Assembly: GCA_016779995.1 (NCBI GenBank)
Contig: JADHMO010000013.1
Location: forward strand, 1 to 48,363
Source: Flavobacteriales bacterium
GTDB lineage: Bacteria; Bacteroidota; Bacteroidia; Flavobacteriales; UBA7312
Reading direction: 5' to 3'
Length of the DNA: 48,363 nucleotides
Shown here piece by piece: positions 12,706 to 47,833 of this stretch. Each line of letters opens with the position of its first letter. The stretch's first letter is position 1. The notes under the pieces were generated by a model. The model saw nothing but the letters and a program-made list of their open reading frames with translations, was not told the origin of the DNA and made no database searches. The position numbers and the translations under genes are program-made.

Positions 12706-13371
12706 ATGAACAAATTCATCTGTTTATTTCTATTTGCTCTACCATTAATAGGCAAAGCTCAAAACACACATACCATTTACGCATCAGACTACAATATTTT
12801 TTCACCTAGCGAACTCACAATCCAAGTGAACGATACTGTGTATTTTGAAAATTTATCTTCTCATAACGCCGTTGAAGTGAATGAGGAAACCTATAATAAC
12901 AATGGAACTACATCAAATGGTGGCTTTTCACTAGAAGATGATGGCTACGTCGTATTTAATGAAGCTGGCACTTATTTTTATGCTTGTACACCCCATGTAA
13001 TGATGGGAATGAAAGCTTACATCATTGTCGAAGGAGAAAGTAATCCACTGACCCATACAATTGATGACTACACCATAGAGTTATCCGATATTTCGTCAGT
13101 TTCTGACTTTTATCAAAACACCTATTACAACGCTTTAGAAGCATGTGATATTAGTTGGCAAATTGTGGAAGCCGAAATGCCGAATGAATGGGAATTTTCT
13201 ATTTGCTTTCCTAGTTGTTATGATCCAGGAGTTATAAGTGGAACCGCCAACTTTTCAGCAAGTACTAATCAGTATTTAAATTGCCATTTTTACCCCAATA
13301 ATACAGCTGGTCAAGGTGTAGTAAAAATGGAAATAACCACTAATTCAACTACCATAGATACAGTGGTATAG
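12706..13371 (+). CDS. Secreted cupredoxin (plastocyanin-like) protein, C-terminally truncated
   Basis: An open frame of 221 residues with a signal peptide (1-19, ending IGKAQ). Residues 20-110 form a blue-copper domain: His in SSHNAVEV, then YACTPHVMMGM, supplying the usual type 1 copper ligands His, Cys, His and Met. The domain after it (about 113-221) contains Cys residues and a DPGVISGTANF segment, a pattern I associate with T9SS-exported proteins. It ends at a TAG at 13369. The same frame then continues for 24 sense codons, and the expected T9SS tail follows in another frame, so the gene looks interrupted. The copper domain itself is intact and could still be made and exported to the periplasm. 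Confidence 0.8.
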   Translation: MNKFICLFLFALPLIGKAQNTHTIYASDYNIFSPSELTIQVNDTVYFENLSSHNAVEVNEETYNNNGTTSNGGFSLEDDGYVVFNEAGTYFYACTPHVMMGMKAYIIVEGESNPLTHTIDDYTIELSDISSVSDFYQNTYYNALEACDISWQIVEAEMPNEWEFSICFPSCYDPGVISGTANFSASTNQYLNCHFYPNNTAGQGVVKMEITTNSTTIDTVV

Positions 13372-17673: not shown

Positions 17674-18609
17674 ATGAAACTTAAAGAACATCTGTCATTT
17701 CTAGTAGATTGGAGCAAGCACATTGTTTTGCCTGGCTTTAGTGGTATGAATCTTTATGATGTGACACATTTTTTTATTGAAGGACTTGAAAAAGGTGCTA
17801 TCACTACCCGAGCGTCTTCAATAGCTTTTAACTTCTTCTTGGCTTTATTTCCAGCCTTGATATTTTTCTTCACTCTAATTCCCTACATTCCTGTAGACAA
17901 CTTTCAAGAAATACTATTAGGACTTTTAGGAGAAGTATTACCACCAAGCACTAACGAATCGGCATTCACCACTATAACTGATATAATTAATCACCCAAGA
18001 GGCGGTCTACTGTCCTTTGGTTTTTTAATGGCTCTGTATTTTTCCACAAATAGTATCAACTCACTTATGGAAGCCTTTAATAGTTCCTATCATATTTCTG
18101 AAAATAGAGGTATGTGGAAGCAACGCCTCATAGCACTAGGTCTAACATTGATGTTATCATTCATGCTTATTGTAGCCGTTGCTCTCATTGTTTTTACACA
18201 ATTTGCTAGTAACTACTTTGTAGACTTAGGGATTCTTGAACAAAGTGCTGTTACTCTTATGGTTATCGGAAAATGGATTATACTATTGGCTTTTTTATTC
18301 GGTGGATTATCGGTATTATTTCAGTACGGTCCGTCTAAAAAAACACATTGGAGTTTAATCTCACCTGGCTCTATTATAGCTACACTTTTTATTGTTTTAA
18401 CGTCAACTGGCTTTGGCTTATATATCGATCATTTTGGTCAATACAACAAACTCTATGGCTCAATTGGTACGCTAATTGTCATTCTGTTATGGATGTACTT
18501 TAATGCTATTGTAATGCTCATTGGCTTTGAACTCAACGCTAGTATTTATAGTGCCAAAGAACACATTAAATCATCGTCTTTTATCAATTTTTTCCAAAAA
18601 AATCAATAA
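17674..18609 (+). CDS. YihY/UPF0761 family inner-membrane protein
   Basis: A 311-residue integral membrane protein with about six hydrophobic helices. The family signature is in the first helix (ITTRASSIAFNFFLALFPALIF split around residues 47-68) and in the last (LYGSIGTLIVILLWMYFNAIVMLIGFELNA). These proteins were once called BrkB or ribonuclease BN, a misassignment; their function is unknown. The start follows the nadC stop with no gap. The 3' end overlaps the possible small minus-strand peptide gene at 18571-18663. Confidence 0.92.
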   Translation: MKLKEHLSFLVDWSKHIVLPGFSGMNLYDVTHFFIEGLEKGAITTRASSIAFNFFLALFPALIFFFTLIPYIPVDNFQEILLGLLGEVLPPSTNESAFTTITDIINHPRGGLLSFGFLMALYFSTNSINSLMEAFNSSYHISENRGMWKQRLIALGLTLMLSFMLIVAVALIVFTQFASNYFVDLGILEQSAVTLMVIGKWIILLAFLFGGLSVLFQYGPSKKTHWSLISPGSIIATLFIVLTSTGFGLYIDHFGQYNKLYGSIGTLIVILLWMYFNAIVMLIGFELNASIYSAKEHIKSSSFINFFQKNQ

Positions 18610-18663
18610 GGATATCAATAGCACAATAGCTACTATACCCATCATTATTTTGGCAAACAACAT
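18571..18663 (-). CDS. Possible small single-span membrane peptide (30 residues)
   Basis: Directly after the DsrE-like gene stop (TAG followed at once by ATG), the minus strand encodes a 30-residue peptide. It has a short start (MLFAK), about 19 hydrophobic residues (IMMGIVAIVLLISLLIFL) and a charged end (EKIDKRR). This is the layout of bacterial single-span membrane peptides with the positive tail inside. Its last 39 bases overlap the yihY 3' end on the other strand. I know no family. TAG-ATG coupling and the clean hydrophobic segment favour a real gene; the small size makes chance possible. Confidence 0.45.
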   Translation of the reverse strand: MLFAKIMMGIVAIVLLISLLIFLEKIDKRR

Positions 18664-18984
18664 CTAGAAGGTAACGGTTTTGTCGCAATCTCTTATTAAT
18701 TCATATAAATCTTTCATAGTAGATAATGGGCATAATTCCGAACTATCTTGTTGTCTGAGATTAAGGCAAGTACCACAAGCCAAAATCTGACCGCCATTAT
18801 CTACAAAAGATTGGGCTAAGTCAATAATCGGAAACTTTTCCGAATGAAGGGATTCATACTCTACCCCACTCGCTAAAAGAAAAAGACGAACCTCGTCTTT
18901 TTCTTTTAATGAGAAGTTAGCCAAACGAAAAGCGTTAAAAACAAGCTCTGCATCCGTACTATATATTATTAATCCTAGTTTCAT
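18664..18984 (-). CDS. DsrE-like small protein with CGTC motif
   Basis: A 106-residue cytoplasmic protein starting at ATG 18984. The in-frame extension to 19041 lies within the receptor coding region and is not family-like. The opening MKLGLIIYST and FLLASGVEY segments and the late GGQILACGTCL (Cys70 and Cys73, with Cys85) match the DsrE/DsrF/YchN fold, whose members bind or relay sulfur through a cysteine in this position. The start codon shares one base with the receptor stop (TGATG), so translation is coupled. Its location in a cassette with a cysteine-rich protein and a TonB receptor hints at thiol or metal chemistry. Confidence 0.85.
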   Translation of the reverse strand: MKLGLIIYSTDAELVFNAFRLANFSLKEKDEVRLFLLASGVEYESLHSEKFPIIDLAQSFVDNGGQILACGTCLNLRQQDSSELCPLSTMKDLYELIRDCDKTVTF

Positions 18985-21143
18985 CAATTGATTTTTAAAC
19001 GAATACCTGTATAAATTAAACGACCCATAACAGGTGCCCATATAATAGACGCGTCAAAATTACTGCCAAATGGATCATCGCCCCCAAGTATAGGATTTTC
19101 TTGCTTATAATTCAACAGATTTTCACCACCTAAGTATATGTCCAAAGTTTTAAACTTTTTAGTGACTTGACTATTTATCACATAGAATGGATCTGAAACC
19201 GTTTTATTGTCTTTAATAAGTGGGTGGTATGGAATTCTACTTTCTCCGATATAATTCCAAGTAGCATCAAACATCCATTTATTGATATGATCTGTAGCAT
19301 ATGCAAAATTAATTAAGGCTCTATTTTCTGGCACTAAAGGAGTTTTCATCTTTTCGCCATCATAAGTAGAATAGACTTGGTTAATTTTATAAGCGAGTTT
19401 AACATCAAAACGATCAAATAATTCATAATTAAAATCGAATTGAATACTGTTTGAATAAGATTCACCATCTAAATTATAAAATCGTAGTTTAGTAGGGTCT
19501 TCTATATCTACTATCACTTGATTTTCAAAATCTGTTCGGTATGCATCTGCATTGAATGATGCTTCTCTTTCAAAAAGTTTAAAACAATGCGTGAAGTTAA
19601 CACCATAATTCCAAGCCACTTCAACACCCAAACTATCTTGTATTTCAAACTCTCTAGAGGATGCAAAATAAGAGGTATTTTCAGCAATAGGATTAGCTAC
19701 TCGCATAGCCTTTCCTGCAGATAGCCTAACGACTGTTTGTTCTGAAGGATTATATTTTAAATTTAAGCGTGGTAAAAATTCAAAACCGTGTGTATTGTGA
19801 TAATCTCCACGAATACCTGCAACAATTGTCAATTCAGAAGGTGAAGTATAACTGTACTCTGTAAAAATACCGGTTGTCAAGTCAACTCTATCAAAATTAG
19901 TAGATTCATAATTTTCGGTGTATCTATCGGCATAATAGCTTATCCCATATTTTAGCGAATGATCTGTTGTAGAAATATAAGTTTGACCTATTAGATTTAA
20001 AAATGCACTTTCTTGTAAGGCATTGTAATCGGTCAACCCAAACTTTATAGCTTGGTCGTGTCTTCTAAAAGCCGTTTGCAATCCGACACTCTTTCCTATT
20101 TTATCAGGCATTTTCAAACCTGTTTTACTATTAAACTCCAAAAGTGTGTTATCTATAAGTACTTTATAAGGATTACTAATTGAACGAATTTGCCCACCTT
20201 CTCGTTCATCAACAAGTACACGACCAACTAGATTAATTCTATAACTTTCCGTTTCTGTAAGCCAACGGTTCAGAACATTGACAGATTTAATATGGGGCAT
20301 GTCCAAAAATCCATTTTCATTTTCGTCAACTTCTTTACTGTGATAGTTTATACTAGTAAAGAGATTAGAAGTCCATTTACCTGTTTTTTTAGCAAACTGC
20401 AGGTTATTTTCAAATTTATTCTCTGAATTGGTATAAAAATTCCAATAAATCTTATCGGCATTTTCAGGTTTAAAATATTCTAAGTTGATTTGACCAGCAA
20501 AAGACTCAAAACCATTTATTACTGAACCAGCACCTTTTATAATCTGTATAGACTCTATCCATGTACCTGGCACGTATGTTAAACCATAAGCAGAAGAAAG
20601 CCCTCTTATCAATGGAACATTTTCTTGGGTTATTTGTGTGTAAATACCATCCAATCCTAACATTTGAATTTGCTTGGCACCAGAAACAGCGTCAGTAAAA
20701 GAAACATCAACAGTAGCATTAGTTTCGAAACTTTCCGAAAGATTACAACAAGCCGCTTTTTGAAGCTCCTTACTAGAAATTTTTTGCACTTGTAATGGAT
20801 TAACCATAGACAATTCTGTGGTATTGACTTTTGACTCAACAGTCACTTCCTTTATATCTACTGACTCGCTAAGCGATACCGTTAGAAAAGATTGGTTTTT
20901 TACCTGAATAGTTTTTGGTTGAAAACCAATATAAGTTACCTTAATATTAACTGGCAACTTATCAACTTGTAGTTTAAACTTACCGTTTACATCGGTAGTT
21001 GTCCCTATTGTTGTGTTTTCTACAACTATGTTAGCTCCTATAAGAGGTAATCCATTTTGATCGTTTATTTTTCCATTGATATTGCCCTGTGCATAAATAA
21101 ACAAAGCACTAATTTGAAAGGCTATTAAAACTATATATTTCAT
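18984..21143 (-). CDS. TonB-dependent receptor, probably metal-related type
   Basis: A 719-residue outer-membrane receptor. Signal peptide 1-19 (ending FIYAQ); carboxypeptidase-regulatory-like domain 20-105; plug about 115-230; then the barrel ending RLIYTGIRLKIN. The plug opens with an unusual AACCNLSESF (Cys132, Cys133) and continues DAVSGAKQIQMLGLDGIYTQ. I associate this form with receptors found beside cysteine-rich HYC_CC_PP-type proteins and heavy-metal genes. The upstream gene here is such a protein and the downstream gene is DsrE-like, coupled by TGATG. Copper or another thiophilic metal is the most natural ligand guess, but it is inferred from neighbours only. Confidence 0.9.
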   Translation of the reverse strand: MKYIVLIAFQISALFIYAQGNINGKINDQNGLPLIGANIVVENTTIGTTTDVNGKFKLQVDKLPVNIKVTYIGFQPKTIQVKNQSFLTVSLSESVDIKEVTVESKVNTTELSMVNPLQVQKISSKELQKAACCNLSESFETNATVDVSFTDAVSGAKQIQMLGLDGIYTQITQENVPLIRGLSSAYGLTYVPGTWIESIQIIKGAGSVINGFESFAGQINLEYFKPENADKIYWNFYTNSENKFENNLQFAKKTGKWTSNLFTSINYHSKEVDENENGFLDMPHIKSVNVLNRWLTETESYRINLVGRVLVDEREGGQIRSISNPYKVLIDNTLLEFNSKTGLKMPDKIGKSVGLQTAFRRHDQAIKFGLTDYNALQESAFLNLIGQTYISTTDHSLKYGISYYADRYTENYESTNFDRVDLTTGIFTEYSYTSPSELTIVAGIRGDYHNTHGFEFLPRLNLKYNPSEQTVVRLSAGKAMRVANPIAENTSYFASSREFEIQDSLGVEVAWNYGVNFTHCFKLFEREASFNADAYRTDFENQVIVDIEDPTKLRFYNLDGESYSNSIQFDFNYELFDRFDVKLAYKINQVYSTYDGEKMKTPLVPENRALINFAYATDHINKWMFDATWNYIGESRIPYHPLIKDNKTVSDPFYVINSQVTKKFKTLDIYLGGENLLNYKQENPILGGDDPFGSNFDASIIWAPVMGRLIYTGIRLKIN

Positions 21144-21204
21144 AATTTAATTATTGATATTAATACTATAACTTAAGCTGTTAAGATTTTAGCTCAGTCA
21201 ATAA

Positions 21205-21690
21205 TCAAATTCTAAATACTTGAAAAAGTGCTAACTGTTGAGAATAGGTTTTGGGAGGTGGTAAATCAAAATTATACCAAGATAAATGTGAGTAGTAGCT
21301 TAGAAGTTCTTTAATGCCTATATCTCTAACAAAAGCTTGCACAAATGATGGAATAGATACAGGTTCATTAACAGGAGTATCAAACACAAATGATACTAAA
21401 CGAACATCTAAAAAACAACAGCAACAAGAGGCAAGAATATTACATTTACAAGATGAAATTCTCTCTACCTCATTTACAGGTTCTGTCGAACAACAAACCA
21501 CTTTTTCTTGTTCTACTGGCTCTGTCTCGCAACAAGACATTGCTTCTTGACAAATATTATCAGACTGATTTATTACTGATATAATATCTGATTTATGAGA
21601 ATGATTAAAGATTACTGGAATACCAATAGCACCAACCAGCATAAACAGGCATAAAAGGTGGCTAATGATATGTTTTGCGATCTTATTCAC
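21205..21690 (-). CDS. Cysteine-rich exported protein resembling the HYC_CC_PP family
   Basis: A 161-residue protein with a hydrophobic leader (about 8-28), then His30 and His32 (NHSH) and paired cysteines at 53-54, 66-67 and 81/83, and a run of four at 89-92. CCxTEPV occurs twice (53 and 66). Near the C-terminus stands DLPPPKTYSQQL. A leader, a His motif, CC pairs and a proline-proline end are the features of HYC_CC_PP proteins, small Bacteroidota proteins found with TonB receptors, though the HYC itself is NHSH here. A periplasmic thiol/His protein binding soft metals is plausible. The start is GTG 21690, 4 bases after a TAACTTTA box. The receptor starts 61 bases after its stop. Confidence 0.75.
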   Translation of the reverse strand: MNKIAKHIISHLLCLFMLVGAIGIPVIFNHSHKSDIISVINQSDNICQEAMSCCETEPVEQEKVVCCSTEPVNEVERISSCKCNILASCCCCFLDVRLVSFVFDTPVNEPVSIPSFVQAFVRDIGIKELLSYYSHLSWYNFDLPPPKTYSQQLALFQVFRI

Positions 21691-21694
21691 TTTG

Positions 21695-21702
21695 TAAAGT
21701 TA
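21695..21702 (-). promoter_or_regulatory. -7-like box TAACTTTA, 4 bases from the GTG
   Basis: One mismatch from TAnnTTTG at the last base. It is separated by four bases (CAAA) from the GTG at 21690 of the cysteine-rich protein, the same spacing as other probable leaderless starts in the window. It likely drives the whole cassette. Confidence 0.4.
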
Positions 21703-21708
21703 CAAAAT

Positions 21709-29842: not shown

Positions 29843-30499
29843 ATGATTACGTTGGCTGAAGAAAATTACTTGAAAGCGATACTCAAACTTTCCAAAAATT
29901 CCGAAGATTCAGTATCTACTAATTCTATTGCTGATGAGCTAGAGACCAAAGCATCATCTGTTACAGATATGATTAAAAAGTTAACAGATAAACAATTGGT
30001 TGATTATGTGCCCTATCGTGGAGTAAGTCTTAGTAAATCTGGTCTTAAGAAAGCCGTAGAAATTGTTAGAAAACATCGTCTTTGGGAAGTTTTTTTAGTC
30101 ACTAAACTTCAATTCAAATGGGACGAGGTTCACGATGTTGCTGAGCAATTAGAACACATCAAATCACAAAAATTAGTAGATGGTTTAGATGCTTACTTGG
30201 GCTATCCACAACACGACCCACATGGAGAACCTATTCCCAATAAAGACGGACTATTTCCTAAATCATTTTCAAAACGACTTAGCGAATTAGAAAAAGGAAG
30301 CAGTGGACAAGTTGTAGGAGTTTCTCAAGACAATCAATCCTTTTTACAATACCTCAATTCCTTAAACATTACACTGGGAACATCTATCAGCGTTCTTAAA
30401 AAAATAGACTTTGACAATTCACTAGAAATAACAATAAACAACAAATTAGCACACATTAGCAATGATGTAGCAAGAAACTTATTAATTAAACAAAAATGA
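29843..30499 (+). CDS. DtxR/MntR-family metal-dependent transcriptional regulator
   Basis: A 218-residue repressor. Residues 1-70 are a winged helix-turn-helix (NSIADELETKASSVTDMIKKL). Residues 75-145 are the metal-binding and dimerisation domain (KHRLWEVFLV, EVHDVAEQLEHI, DPHGEPIP). The C-terminus is an SH3-like FeoA-type domain (about 150-218). Family members sense Fe2+ or Mn2+ and repress uptake genes. Its stop overlaps the start of the ZIP transporter by 4 bases, so it probably controls that transporter and itself; a matching operator lies upstream. Mn rather than Fe is suggested by similarity to MntR, but not proven. Confidence 0.93.
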   Translation: MITLAEENYLKAILKLSKNSEDSVSTNSIADELETKASSVTDMIKKLTDKQLVDYVPYRGVSLSKSGLKKAVEIVRKHRLWEVFLVTKLQFKWDEVHDVAEQLEHIKSQKLVDGLDAYLGYPQHDPHGEPIPNKDGLFPKSFSKRLSELEKGSSGQVVGVSQDNQSFLQYLNSLNITLGTSISVLKKIDFDNSLEITINNKLAHISNDVARNLLIKQK

Positions 30500-31335
30500 C
30501 AGATTTATACACTTGGTTTATCGAACAACACCCTGTATTACAAGCTTTATTAGCTGGACTATTTACTTGGGGCTTGACTGCATCAGGTGCAGCATTGGTC
30601 GTATTCTTTAACAATACTAATCGAAAAATTTTAGATACATCTTTAGGCTTTACTGGTGGTGTTATGATAGCAGCTAGTTTTTGGTCTCTACTCTCCCCCG
30701 CTATCAGCTATGTAGAAATGCAAAATGAAATAGGCAACACTAATTTACCTTCATGGTTTCCTCCTGCTATTGGGTTTTTCTTGGGAGCTTTATTTCTTTT
30801 TGGGTTAGATAAAATAATACCTCACTTACATTTATTCAAAAAAGTTGAAGAAGCAGAAGGCTATCCAACCAAGTGGAAAAAAACTATTTTACTAGTATTA
30901 GCTATTGCTCTCCATAATATTCCTGAAGGTTTAGCTGTAGGTGTCGCTTTTGGAGCCATATCACATGGCATTCCAGGTTTTGAAATAGGAGCAGCTATTG
31001 CTTTAGCTATTGGCATTGGCATACAGAATTTCCCTGAGGGCTTTGCTGTTTCTATGCCGCTCAGGAGACAAGGAGTGAGTAAATGGAAAAGTTGGAAATG
31101 GGGGCAATTATCAGCTATTGTAGAACCTATTTTTGCTATGATTGGTGCTGCCACTGTAATTTATGCATTGCCAATACTGCCCTATGCCCTAGCCTTTGCT
31201 GCAGGAGCAATGATATTCATTGTAGTAGAAGAAGTAATCCCTGAAAGTCAAAGTGGTGGACATACCGACTTAGCTACAATGGGGCTTATTGCAGGATTTA
31301 TCGTAATGATGATACTTGATGTTGCACTAGGATAA
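30496..31335 (+). CDS. ZIP family divalent metal transporter
   Basis: A 279-residue inner-membrane transporter with about eight helices. The paired metal-binding motifs of ZIP proteins are HNIPEGLAVG (His140, Asn141, Glu144) in helix 4 and QNFPEGFAVS (Asn178, Glu181) in helix 5. A later EEVIPESQSGGH segment is also typical of the ZupT/GufA branch. It imports Zn, Mn or Fe into the cytoplasm. The start overlaps the stop of the DtxR-type regulator by 4 bases, so metal supply and regulation form one operon. The smpB promoter lies in its 3' end. Confidence 0.94.
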   Translation: MTDLYTWFIEQHPVLQALLAGLFTWGLTASGAALVVFFNNTNRKILDTSLGFTGGVMIAASFWSLLSPAISYVEMQNEIGNTNLPSWFPPAIGFFLGALFLFGLDKIIPHLHLFKKVEEAEGYPTKWKKTILLVLAIALHNIPEGLAVGVAFGAISHGIPGFEIGAAIALAIGIGIQNFPEGFAVSMPLRRQGVSKWKSWKWGQLSAIVEPIFAMIGAATVIYALPILPYALAFAAGAMIFIVVEEVIPESQSGGHTDLATMGLIAGFIVMMILDVALG

Positions 31336-43120: not shown

Positions 43121-45466
43121 CTAACGAACTAGATTAACGTAACCGTTTTGCTTGAAAATTTCAGCGTCTTTACCATAAATTGTAACAGCGTAAGTATAAA
43201 CACCTGTTGGTAATGTTTTATTCTTATATGTGCCGTCCCATTGATGTTCTATTCTATTAGAATAAAATACTTTTTGTCCCCATCTAGAGTAAACTGAGAT
43301 TTCAAATTCTAAAATATTATCTCCTCTTAACTCAAAAAAATCATTGATTTGATCATTGTTAGGGGTAAAGGTATTCGGAATGTATAAATGAACCTCACAA
43401 TCTATTAGTATATAAGTAGAATCTGTTTCGTTACAATTATTAGGAAAACTATAGTAAACCCAACTTTTTCCTTCAAAGGCATTTATAGGGTGAAAATACC
43501 CCTCAAAATCTACTCCCTTGCCACTAAACACTCCTCCTGTAGGCATGGCCTCTAATAAAATTGGAGGGTCAACAGGACATAAAATAGAATCAACTGATGT
43601 GATGAATTTTGGAAAAATCGGTTCTTTAAACCGAACACTAGCCAAACCTTCATTAGTAAGCGATTTACAATCGTATTTATCTATCAATTTACTTATAGTA
43701 TAATTAGCAGAATCTTTGACATATACTTCAAATTTAGATTCGGTTAAATCATCAAATACTCTATTGTAAGAACCATTGAATAAATATAAACTATAGGGCG
43801 GAGCATCTACCTTTGAATGGATAGTGAGCAAGGCACTATCCCCTTCACATATTACACTCCCATTTTCTATATATGATGATGAGGTTGAATAAGTAACTTC
43901 TACAGAATTTGATGGCAGACCTTCACAATTTACGTCTTTAAGTTGAGTAACTTTATAGTTTCCTTTATTTCTTGCCTCAAAGGAGTAATTCATAGTAGTT
44001 GATGTATCATGAATTGAAGTAATTCCATTTCCAAAAGTAAAATAGAATGGACTTTGCCCAGAAAAGTTTATATCTATAATTGGGAAATCAGAAGTCTGAC
44101 CTTCACAAATATTTCCTCCACCATGTGTCCTCGCTTGTGGAAGATTATATCCATGAACAATAATAGTGTCAATTTCTTCACAACCATTAGCATCAATTAT
44201 TTTCACCCAATATGTACCATCTAAGACGTTTATACTTTCTGTAGTTTGCCCAGTACTCCATTGATAAGAATACGGAGGTGTAGCCTGATCAATTGATTTC
44301 ACATTTATGTTTATATTCTCATTTTTACATGTATAAACATCCTCACCCAAATCTACCAATATTGGTGTTTCTGTTATTATAATTGTGTCAGAATTAATTA
44401 CACAACCTTCATTAGACGCTTGTACATAATAACTACCTGCCCCAACACTTATTGATTGTGTTGTATCATTTGTATTCCATATAAAAGAATAATCATCTTC
44501 AGATTCTAACTGAGCTGACAATTCAATTTTTGAACCACAAGGTATTTGTATTTGATTGCCTTGAATACCCAATGAGTTACTTAAATAAAGTGAGGATGAT
44601 GAAAAACTATTTTCTTCAATAAAAATAAAAGATGACATACCAGCATCCGAACCATCTGCAATGGCTAGACGAATATGGTAAGTTTCTCCACATTGAACCA
44701 CTACTTTTGCAGTCATAACATCTGTAAAACCTCTTATTCCACCCACTGATTCCAAGGATTGATTGTTTACAAATAAATGAGAATTATAGACGGCATTATT
44801 TGTCTCAAAATTACAAATAGATGAAATGGTAATGGGTAACATTTGTCCAAGCGAATTTTCTTCAACACTTTCAAAAGTTGCAATATTAATACTACCATCT
44901 GTAAAAGCCGTTGGACTAGCGTACTGACCAGAAATACCAGGACCTGAAATAAAAAAACCAAAAACATCATTATAAGGAGAGTTTTCATAAAAAAGATATT
45001 CTTGTGAACCAAAAACATAGTTAAATGAAACTGTATCACTATTAGGCACAAAATCAAATTCTAAGACTGCTACATCATTTATGGCAGAAACATTAAAATC
45101 TTGACCTATTAAGTCAGGAACAGCATTAGCAACATCTAAAAGATCTGGATCTGTAACGATTGGATTTACATTTACAAATTCACCAATACCATTGAAACTA
45201 GTGTCTAGTATAGCAATATCACCCGTTCCCATTACTATTCCTCCGTTTAGTCCTAAATTTGAATTTGTTCCTTTAAAATATCCTATTTGAATGGAGTCGC
45301 CATTATAATTTAGATTTGAAATAGGTAAATCGTCTGACAAAAGAACGTCGTTAATCAAAAAACTCACATTATCATACGGAGGTGTTCTGTCTACTGTGAG
45401 TTGACCATAGGTAGAATAACTATATAAAAGAATAGAAATTATAAGGATTACTTTTTTCAATGGCAT
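43121..45466 (-). CDS. T9SS type B surface protein with choice-of-anchor L domain
   Basis: A 781-residue secreted protein from ATG 45466. The longer frame opens with a TTG at 45496 that overlaps the promoter box. Signal peptide 1-22 (ending TYGQ). Residues about 23-270 match choice-of-anchor L domains (LGLNGGIVMGTGDIAILD; FNYVFGSQEYLFYE; VFGFFISGPG). Then come Ig/SprB-like repeats (PPYSYQWSTGQTTES, DANGCEEID). The last 90 residues are the gliding-motility-type C-terminal domain (IPNTFTPNNDQINDFF; YSRWGQKVFYS; WDGTYKNKTLPTGVYTY), a T9SS type B signal. Probably a cell-surface adhesin. It is paralogous to the next gene upstream. Confidence 0.92.
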   Translation of the reverse strand: MPLKKVILIISILLYSYSTYGQLTVDRTPPYDNVSFLINDVLLSDDLPISNLNYNGDSIQIGYFKGTNSNLGLNGGIVMGTGDIAILDTSFNGIGEFVNVNPIVTDPDLLDVANAVPDLIGQDFNVSAINDVAVLEFDFVPNSDTVSFNYVFGSQEYLFYENSPYNDVFGFFISGPGISGQYASPTAFTDGSINIATFESVEENSLGQMLPITISSICNFETNNAVYNSHLFVNNQSLESVGGIRGFTDVMTAKVVVQCGETYHIRLAIADGSDAGMSSFIFIEENSFSSSSLYLSNSLGIQGNQIQIPCGSKIELSAQLESEDDYSFIWNTNDTTQSISVGAGSYYVQASNEGCVINSDTIIITETPILVDLGEDVYTCKNENININVKSIDQATPPYSYQWSTGQTTESINVLDGTYWVKIIDANGCEEIDTIIVHGYNLPQARTHGGGNICEGQTSDFPIIDINFSGQSPFYFTFGNGITSIHDTSTTMNYSFEARNKGNYKVTQLKDVNCEGLPSNSVEVTYSTSSSYIENGSVICEGDSALLTIHSKVDAPPYSLYLFNGSYNRVFDDLTESKFEVYVKDSANYTISKLIDKYDCKSLTNEGLASVRFKEPIFPKFITSVDSILCPVDPPILLEAMPTGGVFSGKGVDFEGYFHPINAFEGKSWVYYSFPNNCNETDSTYILIDCEVHLYIPNTFTPNNDQINDFFELRGDNILEFEISVYSRWGQKVFYSNRIEHQWDGTYKNKTLPTGVYTYAVTIYGKDAEIFKQNGYVNLVR

Positions 45467-45493
45467 GGAATTATTTAAAATGCTGAAGAACAG

Positions 45494-45501
45494 CAAATGT
45501 A
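45494..45501 (-). promoter_or_regulatory. -7 box TACATTTG for the second T9SS surface protein
   Basis: A perfect TAnnTTTG match on the minus strand, 27 bases before ATG 45466. It lies after the stop of the upstream paralog (reading minus), so the second gene can be expressed alone. Confidence 0.45.
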
Positions 45502-45523
45502 TCCTTACAAATTTAGGAAAAAT

Positions 45524-47833
45524 TTAGTGTAAAACATTTACTACACCCATTTTTGTGATGTATTGAGCGTCTTTTCCATAGGCACTGAAAGAGTAAGAGT
45601 ACGCGCCTTCTGGAACAATTTTATTTTTGTACTTCCCATCCCAAAACGAATTAATGTTATCTGTAAAATACATTAACTCCCCCCATCTATTATAAATCGA
45701 CATCTCAAAAGTAAGCACATTATTACCTCTTACAACGAGTAATTCATTTTCATCATCACCATTAGGAGTAAATGAATTGGGTATAAAAATATGAAGATTA
45801 CAACCTAATTCAATTAAAATAGAATCGGTTTCATTACAATTTTCTGGAAAGCTATAATATATCCAATTATCTCCTATGTTGGCATTGATAGGATAAAAAT
45901 AATTATTTAATCCCATACCTTTACCTGTCCAAAGTCCGTTTGGTTCCATAGTTGTTAACTGAAAAGCACTGTCAACAGGACAAACAACCGTATCAAAATG
46001 AGACGTGATTTCAGGATTTTTAAAATCCTTGAAAGCAACAATAGCAATACCTTCATTTTCAATAGATTGGCAACCGTTAGCATCAATAACTTTACTAACT
46101 ATATATGAAGCTGGCTCTTTGACATAAGTTGTCATATAGCTATCCATAAGTGAACTAAAGTTAATTGAATAATTACCATTACTTAACAATACATTGTAAG
46201 GTAAAGCATCGGCTTCAACATCAATTCTAATTAGTGTACTATCACCATCACACATGGTTTCTCCTCCAGTAATTAAAGATTTTGGCAAGGTGTTGTAAGT
46301 AATTAAGGCAGAACCACTCGCTGAACCTAAACAATTTTTATCTGTCAAAGAGGTAATTGAATAATTACCTGTATAGGTAGCATTTATAGAGTAATTAGAG
46401 AACATAGCAGTATCAACAAATTGCTGGTCTCCATTGGTATAACTGATATAATAAGGAGCTTGACCTGTCAAATTTACGTTGAGAGGTAATACAAAAGGTT
46501 GTCCTTCACAGATAGCACCTCCTCCATCCAAAACAGCAGTAGGTCTATCTAATGAAAATACGGTTATATCATCTTGTCCTATACAACCATTAGCATCGGT
46601 AATAGTCAAAGCGTAAACGCCTGCAGGAACTGTTATTTGATCTGTATTCTGCCCACTACTCCAAGTGTAACTTATTGGCGCAATAGCATTCAGAGTTTCT
46701 ATTTCAATAGTTGCATCTTCTCCTTCACAAACCGAAATATCTTCTCCCAAATCGATTTCAACTGTATTTAATTCATCTACATAAAATGTGTCAGAAAGTG
46801 TAACACAATTTATATTACTAGTAACCTCTACAGTATAAGACCCCTCTCCAACCGTAACATTTTGCTGAGTAGAACCATTACTCCAAAGGTATTGATAAAC
46901 TCCAGGTACAGACATCTGTGCGGATAAAGTTACATCGGTTCCACAAGGAATTACAATATGACTAGAGTCTTGACCAATATTGTTAGTTACCTCCAAAAAG
47001 GGAGATGAAAAACTATTTTCTTCTAAAAAGACATAAGAAGATAATCCGCCATCTGAACCATCTGCTATAGCTAAACGAATATGATAGGTCTCACCACACT
47101 GAACAGCAGCTACAGCTGTCAGAGGAATAGTGAATCCATCAGCATCATCAACAGTTTCTAAACCTTGATTATTAATAAAATAATCGGGATTAACTGTTGC
47201 ATTAACAGAAGATATAGTAACTGGCATAACTACTCCGTTATCATCTTCTATAGTCGCAATATTTATACTCCCATTTGGAAAAGCCGCAGGACTTGCATAT
47301 GGCCCTACAATGCCAGGTCCTGAGATAAAGAAACCAAACACATCGTTATACTGAGAGTTTTCAAAAGCAAAATATTCTTGGGAAGCAAAAACATATTGGA
47401 ATGTCACCGTATCACTACTTGGTATAAAATCAAATTCTAAAACTGCCACATCGTTTATATCTTGTACCACAAAATTCTGTCCAATCAAAGCAGGAACACT
47501 ATTTGCCACATCTAGCAAATCAGGATCTGTAACTGGTGGGTTAACATCAATAAAACCACCAAAACCAGTAAAATTAGGGTCAAGAATAGAAATATCACCT
47601 GTACTCATCACAATGCCACTATTCAAGCCTAAATTAGATGCTGTACCGTCAAAAAAACCTATTTGAATAGAATCGCCTTGATAAGTATGATTAGAGGCTA
47701 CCACACCATCTCCCAATAAAATATCGTTAACTAAATAAACTGGACTATCATTAGGAGGGGCGTTATCAACGGTCAATTGTGCTTGAACGGATAAGAATGA
47801 AAAAAAGAAAATAATTAAAAAATTAGTTTTCAT
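45524..47833 (-). CDS. T9SS type B surface protein with choice-of-anchor L domain (paralog)
   Basis: A 769-residue secreted protein with signal peptide 1-18 (ending SVQAQ). The order of parts matches the downstream gene: choice-of-anchor L (LGLNSGIVMSTGDISILD; FQYVFASQEYFAFE; VFGFFISGPG), Ig/SprB-like repeats (PISYTWSSGQNTDQ, DANGCIGQDD), then the type B C-terminal domain (IPNSFTPNGDDENEL; YNRWGELMYF; FWDGKYKNKIVPEGAYSY). The two are clearly tandem duplicates. Such proteins are exported by T9SS and attached at the surface, but the binding partner is unknown. It starts 43 bases after the stop of the upstream T9SS type A gene, so they may share a transcript. Confidence 0.92.
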   Translation of the reverse strand: MKTNFLIIFFFSFLSVQAQLTVDNAPPNDSPVYLVNDILLGDGVVASNHTYQGDSIQIGFFDGTASNLGLNSGIVMSTGDISILDPNFTGFGGFIDVNPPVTDPDLLDVANSVPALIGQNFVVQDINDVAVLEFDFIPSSDTVTFQYVFASQEYFAFENSQYNDVFGFFISGPGIVGPYASPAAFPNGSINIATIEDDNGVVMPVTISSVNATVNPDYFINNQGLETVDDADGFTIPLTAVAAVQCGETYHIRLAIADGSDGGLSSYVFLEENSFSSPFLEVTNNIGQDSSHIVIPCGTDVTLSAQMSVPGVYQYLWSNGSTQQNVTVGEGSYTVEVTSNINCVTLSDTFYVDELNTVEIDLGEDISVCEGEDATIEIETLNAIAPISYTWSSGQNTDQITVPAGVYALTITDANGCIGQDDITVFSLDRPTAVLDGGGAICEGQPFVLPLNVNLTGQAPYYISYTNGDQQFVDTAMFSNYSINATYTGNYSITSLTDKNCLGSASGSALITYNTLPKSLITGGETMCDGDSTLIRIDVEADALPYNVLLSNGNYSINFSSLMDSYMTTYVKEPASYIVSKVIDANGCQSIENEGIAIVAFKDFKNPEITSHFDTVVCPVDSAFQLTTMEPNGLWTGKGMGLNNYFYPINANIGDNWIYYSFPENCNETDSILIELGCNLHIFIPNSFTPNGDDENELLVVRGNNVLTFEMSIYNRWGELMYFTDNINSFWDGKYKNKIVPEGAYSYSFSAYGKDAQYITKMGVVNVLH

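Follow-up and report, generated by a model that had tools for sequence, protein, structure and literature searches.

We propose, with rather more confidence than doubt, that a four-gene cassette on the minus strand of a Flavobacteriales genome is a copper-acquisition operon whose first gene serves as a regulatory leader. The stretch of DNA analysed (the window, 48,363 nt) comes from a 1.96-Mb draft genome, whose near relatives bearing names are uncultured Flavobacteriales. Gene order and its conservation, an RNA hairpin between the first two genes, a fixed C-terminal tail on the first protein and a linkage to copper genes are read directly from the sequences and form the ground on which the proposal is built.

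Layout and conservation of the cassette

The features on which the argument turns are as follows.

21690 down to 18571, minus strand: four-gene cassette in the order Cys-rich protein, TonB-dependent receptor, DsrE-like protein, 30-residue open reading frame (ORF)
21694..21707, minus strand: Bacteroidota-type promoter-like motif TTTTGTAACTTTAC, just 5' of the first gene and kept in family members
21205..21690, minus strand: Cys-rich exported-type protein, 161 aa, 12 Cys, GTG start, NHSH; proposed nascent copper sensor (CutF/CruR-like), divergent HYC_CC_PP relative
21208..21261, minus strand: conserved 18-residue C-terminal tail PPPKTYSQQLALFQVFRI, beginning PPP; proposed arrest segment, from PP-to-stop distance and tail conservation
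21144..21211, minus strand: RNA hairpin from the Cys-rich gene's stop codon to the last bases ahead of the receptor ATG, with a 14-bp outer stem (21198-21211 with 21144-21157)
18984..21143, minus strand: TonB-dependent receptor with an N-terminal CarboxypepD_reg-like domain; probable copper uptake (Pfam, order-wide orthologue, AlphaFold2, Foldseek)
20745..20750, minus strand: codons for Cys132-Cys133, where the plug begins; both residues invariant in all 47 receptors compared and in all 32 rows of alignment A5
18664..18984, minus strand: DsrE-like protein of the cytoplasm (106 aa, with ACGTC), a lineage-specific accessory whose start lies within TGATG
18571..18663, minus strand: 30-residue membrane peptide MLFAKIMMGIVAIVLLISLLIFLEKIDKRR, ATG directly after TAG; under purifying selection, kept without the DsrE-like gene in genome G008
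G000:C4:56000-66500, in the window's genome: second copper-linked locus, L190, grouping MbnP and MbnH with an HMA protein, a TRX-like protein that is secreted and bears a T9SS sorting tail, and a protein starting CCSGG

All four minus-strand genes described in the original prediction were confirmed in the sequence, together with the CGTC and Cys-Cys motifs, the TGATG and TAG-ATG junctions and, in the 161-aa first ORF, the 12 Cys and the NHSH motif. The start of the DsrE-like gene is 18984, which corrects the ORF listing from 19041. The promoter-like motif, known from its sequence alone and presumably matching the -7 consensus TAnnTTTG, takes the form TTTTGTAANTTTAC in family members and TTTTGTAACTTTG in G005.

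The proposed grouping of the four genes is kept in eight of the ten genomes of the window's family, and the receptor is likewise present in eight of ten, in a comparison made mostly of draft genomes, with gene starts assigned by rule and loci related to one another. It is a recurrent arrangement rather than a fixed unit: G007 lacks the cassette, G008 is without the DsrE-like gene, the peptide is frameshifted in G006 and its ATG is lost in G009. Genera g1 and g2 have the window's order, and genus g4 has receptor, HMA, DsrE, peptide, the additional gene encoding an HMA-domain protein (PF00403, GNCEMC).

Elsewhere in the window, a gene for what by eye looks like a DtxR/MntR-type regulator precedes a ZIP-family-like metal transporter (29843-31335). 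Two adjoining large secreted proteins with repeat-like domains (43121-47833) are near duplicates of each other, and an exported protein (12706-13371) has an N-terminal region that by eye is plastocyanin-like.

The first gene and the hairpin that follows it

The N-terminus of the Cys-rich protein is visibly hydrophobic, and the protein is presumably exported. It contains CC clusters, and its counterparts are 150 aa long in G002 and 149 aa in G008. The last CC lies 51-62 residues before the PP run in nearly all loci, and the PP run lies 17-18 residues from the stop in most of them and 14 in one clade. In all five groups the last 20 residues are conserved above the rest of the mature protein, tail conservation being 0.94 versus 0.61 in the window's own family and 0.90 versus 0.64 in the sister family f11; Cys positions are highly conserved in most groups and the middle of the protein poorly so. 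Since the changes in the tail codons are synonymous, selection acts at the amino-acid level, and such selection extends over the protein.

Between the stop codon of this gene and the receptor ATG lie 61 nt, across which a hairpin that had not featured in the original prediction can be folded (-15.5 kcal/mol, z -2.28); its 5' arm spans the stop codon and its 3' arm ends at the receptor ATG. An intrinsic terminator was considered and rejected, because the 3' arm stops at the ATG with no U-tract behind it. Across 37 de-duplicated loci z averages -3.80, compared with a mean of -0.85 for 86 control same-strand intergenic regions taken from the same loci (Mann-Whitney p 2.5e-12), and a stop-to-start stem occurs in 35 of 37 loci versus 34 of 86 controls (40%). 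Individual loci may be weak, with z about 0 in L151 and about -1 in L024 and L163. Six f11 sequences show two-sided compensatory change at 7 of 22 pairs, with 87.9% of cells paired as against at most 54.2% when slid; covariation in the window's own family is weak, because two-sided change is found there at two pairs only.

The surroundings of related proteins bear on what the first gene does. In all HYC_CC_PP loci parsed, members of this family (NCBIfam NF047658) stand 60-121 nt before receptors, HMA proteins and CusA-type RND genes, the last named from a recognisable N-terminus rather than by Pfam assignment, and in five genomes (G115, G016, G063, G070, G040) they lie directly 5' of MbnP. Hairpins are present after the leader whichever gene comes next; those before the CusA-type RND genes (L045-L064) are strong, with mean z about -4.6 to -4.8. 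These neighbourhoods support the earlier classing of the first two genes with the HYC_CC_PP/receptor pairs of Bacteroidota. The accompanying expectation that the Cys-rich protein would keep to receptor neighbours is partly contradicted by them, since widespread relatives have no receptor beside them and head CusA-type RND, HMA and MbnP genes. With relatives standing at the head of receptor, HMA, MbnP and CusA-type efflux genes alike, the Cys-rich protein makes most sense as a copper-responsive regulator, a nascent sensor like CutF or CruR, rather than as a part of the receptor. The leader and hairpin arrangement appears to recur 5' of genes for copper import as well as export throughout the order Flavobacteriales.

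CutF of Rhodobacter capsulatus (cutFOG) depends on its export, on a Cys and a PP motif and on a stem-loop that covers the start of the following gene (PMC9973294). CruR of Bordetella pertussis heads the copper-receptor operon bp2923-bfrG-bp2921 (PMC9426467, PMC12914433). With CutF the window protein shares the outline of a small Cys protein, presumably exported, with a C-terminal PP, placed first in a probable copper operon, with a stem-loop behind it that covers the start of the next gene; it differs in its CC clusters in place of CxxxC and in having a receptor as the next gene, and the two have no recognisable sequence relation. The published rules for CutF-like proteins (fewer than 150 aa, PP within the last 15 residues, a Sec signal peptide, a same-strand next gene within 1000 nt; PMC9973294) agree with the window in the next gene, 61 nt away to its ATG, and the start-covering stem-loop is also there, but the protein is longer, at 161 aa, and its PPP begins 18 residues from the end. 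The survey behind these rules lists many Bacteroidota proteins, and its filter would leave this one out (PMC9973294). CruR likewise is a Cys leader, itself exported, of a TonB-dependent copper-receptor operon, and its homologues also precede MbnPH; however, it is a DUF2946 protein with CXXC and with RAPP 3 residues from the end, its gap measures 162 nt and its control is Rho-dependent, whereas the window has a 61-nt gap and a start-occluding hairpin, and its protein matches no Pfam family, DUF2946 (PF11162) included, and lacks RAPP. The resemblance to CutF and CruR is thus one of anatomy, and by their published rules the protein is not a member.

The HYC_CC_PP family is similar in position, in probable export and in its CC motif and PP tail, both of which the window protein has, with NHSH standing where the family has HYC. 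The NF047658 model gives no match to the window protein and reaches one of eight own-family members at E 0.041; a sister-family protein (L130) just attains the cut-off (28.1 versus 28 bits). Membership by profile-profile comparison (hhalign) was rejected, as only the signal peptides align. The literature searched yielded no published function for this family. In 4 of 47 receptor loci (L158, L161, L165, L153) the first gene is instead a short Cys protein ending in DPPQLS, WQPPKI or WQPPQF, so that PP stands 5 residues before the end; in three of the four a hairpin with z < -3 follows. Pfam and NCBIfam searches with three of these four proteins gave no family name; the usual first gene looks to have been replaced there by a more typical CutF-like leader.

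Linkage to copper genes and the downstream products

The receptor carries plug (PF07715) and barrel (PF00593) domains above the Pfam cut-off, and its orthologue is present as a single copy in 118 of 196 Flavobacteriales genomes. Its AlphaFold2 model (pLDDT 87) has an ordinary receptor fold, for which the top Foldseek matches include OprC (PMC8610252); because BtuB, Cir and PhuR score similarly, these matches do not single out a substrate. The CxxxM-HxM motifs of OprC were sought in the window receptor and in five representatives and found in none, so an OprC-type binding site was rejected for the window receptor; unlike OprC, this protein has the invariant plug Cys-Cys and an N-terminal CarboxypepD_reg domain.

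Copper is suggested by gene linkage. An HMA protein adjoins the receptor in 30 of 40 outside loci, and the f11 operon consists of the Cys protein, the receptor, HMA, a TRX-like protein and the CCSGG protein, in that order. The genome of the window has its HMA-TRX-CCSGG block elsewhere, at L190, directly after MbnP (PF20243, E 2e-23) and its neighbour MbnH, an MbnH/MauG-type di-haem enzyme; these two do not adjoin the receptor itself. The position of the HMA protein beside MbnP and MbnH points to copper. The substrate is therefore probably a thiophilic metal, most likely copper, and the receptor probably takes it up. Of the two alternatives first put forward, a thiophilic metal or a sulfur compound, the former is thus upheld in this probable form and uptake of the latter is not supported.

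The DsrE-like protein matches PF02635 (E 2e-8; 34.9 bits versus a cut-off of 22.7), and its model (pLDDT 93.5) finds DsrE folds in Foldseek, namely 3mc3 (E 5.8e-7), 3pnx and 2fb6; a sequence search of solved structures gave no match. In domain, predicted fold and conserved CGTC it is like the DsrE/YchN-like sulfur carriers, from which it differs in lying inside a probable copper operon, in being confined there to one family and in being dispensable. That it is dispensable follows from G008, in which it has been cleanly deleted, leaving a scar of its first codons and last bases, an intact peptide and the rest of the cassette. Of its relatives in other Bacteroidota, none lies near a receptor. 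By these comparisons the gene is a lineage-specific, dispensable insertion, and its former casting as an essential part of the system finds no support. Its haloarchaeal relatives (41-44%) lie among sulfur genes, and we would guess that it serves copper handling from the cytosol, as a thiol or persulfide partner. Sulfur uptake as the core function was rejected, because other families have this operon without the gene and G008 has lost it.

For the 30-residue ORF, codons 1-18, the part free of overlap with an opposite YihY/BrkB gene, show substitutions mainly at third positions (e.g. 4/2/12) and dN far below dS; this bias indicates that the peptide is translated and selected, and on these substitution patterns the ORF is a real protein-coding gene. 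When 386 genomes were searched with a profile, full-length relatives of 30 residues turned up in G098 and G208, two of the 52 genomes of a second family, each starting at the first base after an HMA stop codon; the G208 copy has the receptor of its cassette upstream of it. A CcmD-like identity was rejected, as the search with PF20077 gave nothing convincing in the family, and a DUF2633 match below the cut-off was taken as chance.

A proposed switch and the readings that compete with it

It is tempting to combine these elements into a copper-dependent switch. The Cys-rich leader would be exported while being made, its CC clusters would bind copper, and its conserved C-terminal tail would slow or arrest the ribosome near the leader stop codon, which the hairpin links to the start of the receptor gene. 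As long as a ribosome stayed at the leader's end, it would cover the 5' arm and so free the receptor start; once it finished and left, the hairpin would be able to close. From the likely logic for an uptake receptor we infer the sign: low copper would lead to arrest and receptor synthesis, and bound copper would relieve the arrest and turn the receptor off. The arrest site would have to lie nearer the stop than the PP run, because PP is 18 codons away from the stop and a pause there would leave the hairpin arm uncovered; a tail held inside the exit tunnel, with the ribosome at the last codons, would fit better. Once made, the receptor would carry copper or a complex of it across the outer membrane, Cys132-Cys133 probably acting as relay ligands, and the metal would pass to the periplasmic HMA chaperone encoded beside MbnP/MbnH in the window's genome. 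The DsrE-like protein and the peptide would be co-translated accessories, the one perhaps a thiol/sulfur partner in the cytosol, the other perhaps a partner in the inner membrane.

The presumed export of the Cys-rich protein, its wealth of Cys at highly conserved positions in most groups and the amino-acid-level selection over it would equally suit a structural role, that of a periplasmic copper chaperone or store fed by the receptor, with the hairpin merely tuning or protecting the mRNA. We regard this as possible, though distinctly less probable than regulation: the same family heads both receptor-type uptake and CusA-type efflux operons, the middle of the protein is poorly conserved and the tail next to the stop best, the PP-to-stop distance is fixed, and hairpins follow the leader whatever the next gene.

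As to the metal, import of silver, zinc, nickel or a metal-chelator complex in place of copper seems unlikely. HMA proteins and Cys ligands are not copper-specific, the HMA matches here include both MerP and CopZ models, and published CutF-like proteins are not all copper-specific (PMC9973294). Against this, the linkage to MbnP/MbnH and to CusA-type efflux points to Cu(I). We also know of no zinc or nickel receptors with such Cys-only leaders, which counts further against another metal. Combined uptake of metal and sulfur (thiosulfate or a thiol), with DsrE as the sulfur carrier, as the original prediction had it, is very improbable: the CGTC-bearing DsrE is co-translated with the receptor or comes later in the same cassette in seven genomes, and its archaeal relatives sit in sulfur gene neighbourhoods, yet it has been deleted in G008 with the rest of the cassette kept, every other family examined has the same operon without it, and no other sulfur genes occur at the locus.

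The regulatory-leader proposal may be extended from this operon to the HYC_CC_PP-like proteins of Flavobacteriales as a class of copper-sensing arrest peptides, a generalization to which we give even chances. Such proteins would arrest at their own stop codon or close to it by means of a fixed PP tail of 14-18 residues, switch a start-codon hairpin and control both copper import (receptors with a Cys-Cys plug) and copper export (CusA), and the operon of the window's lineage would add a new 30-residue inner-membrane peptide. This offers a testable function for the widespread HYC_CC_PP family and a candidate copper receptor for a major phylum in which copper import has barely been studied, and the peptide would be an added membrane microprotein of a kind likely missed by gene callers. 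If the proposal is true, metal-sensing control by nascent peptides reaches deep into Bacteroidota, with a tail chemistry of its own.
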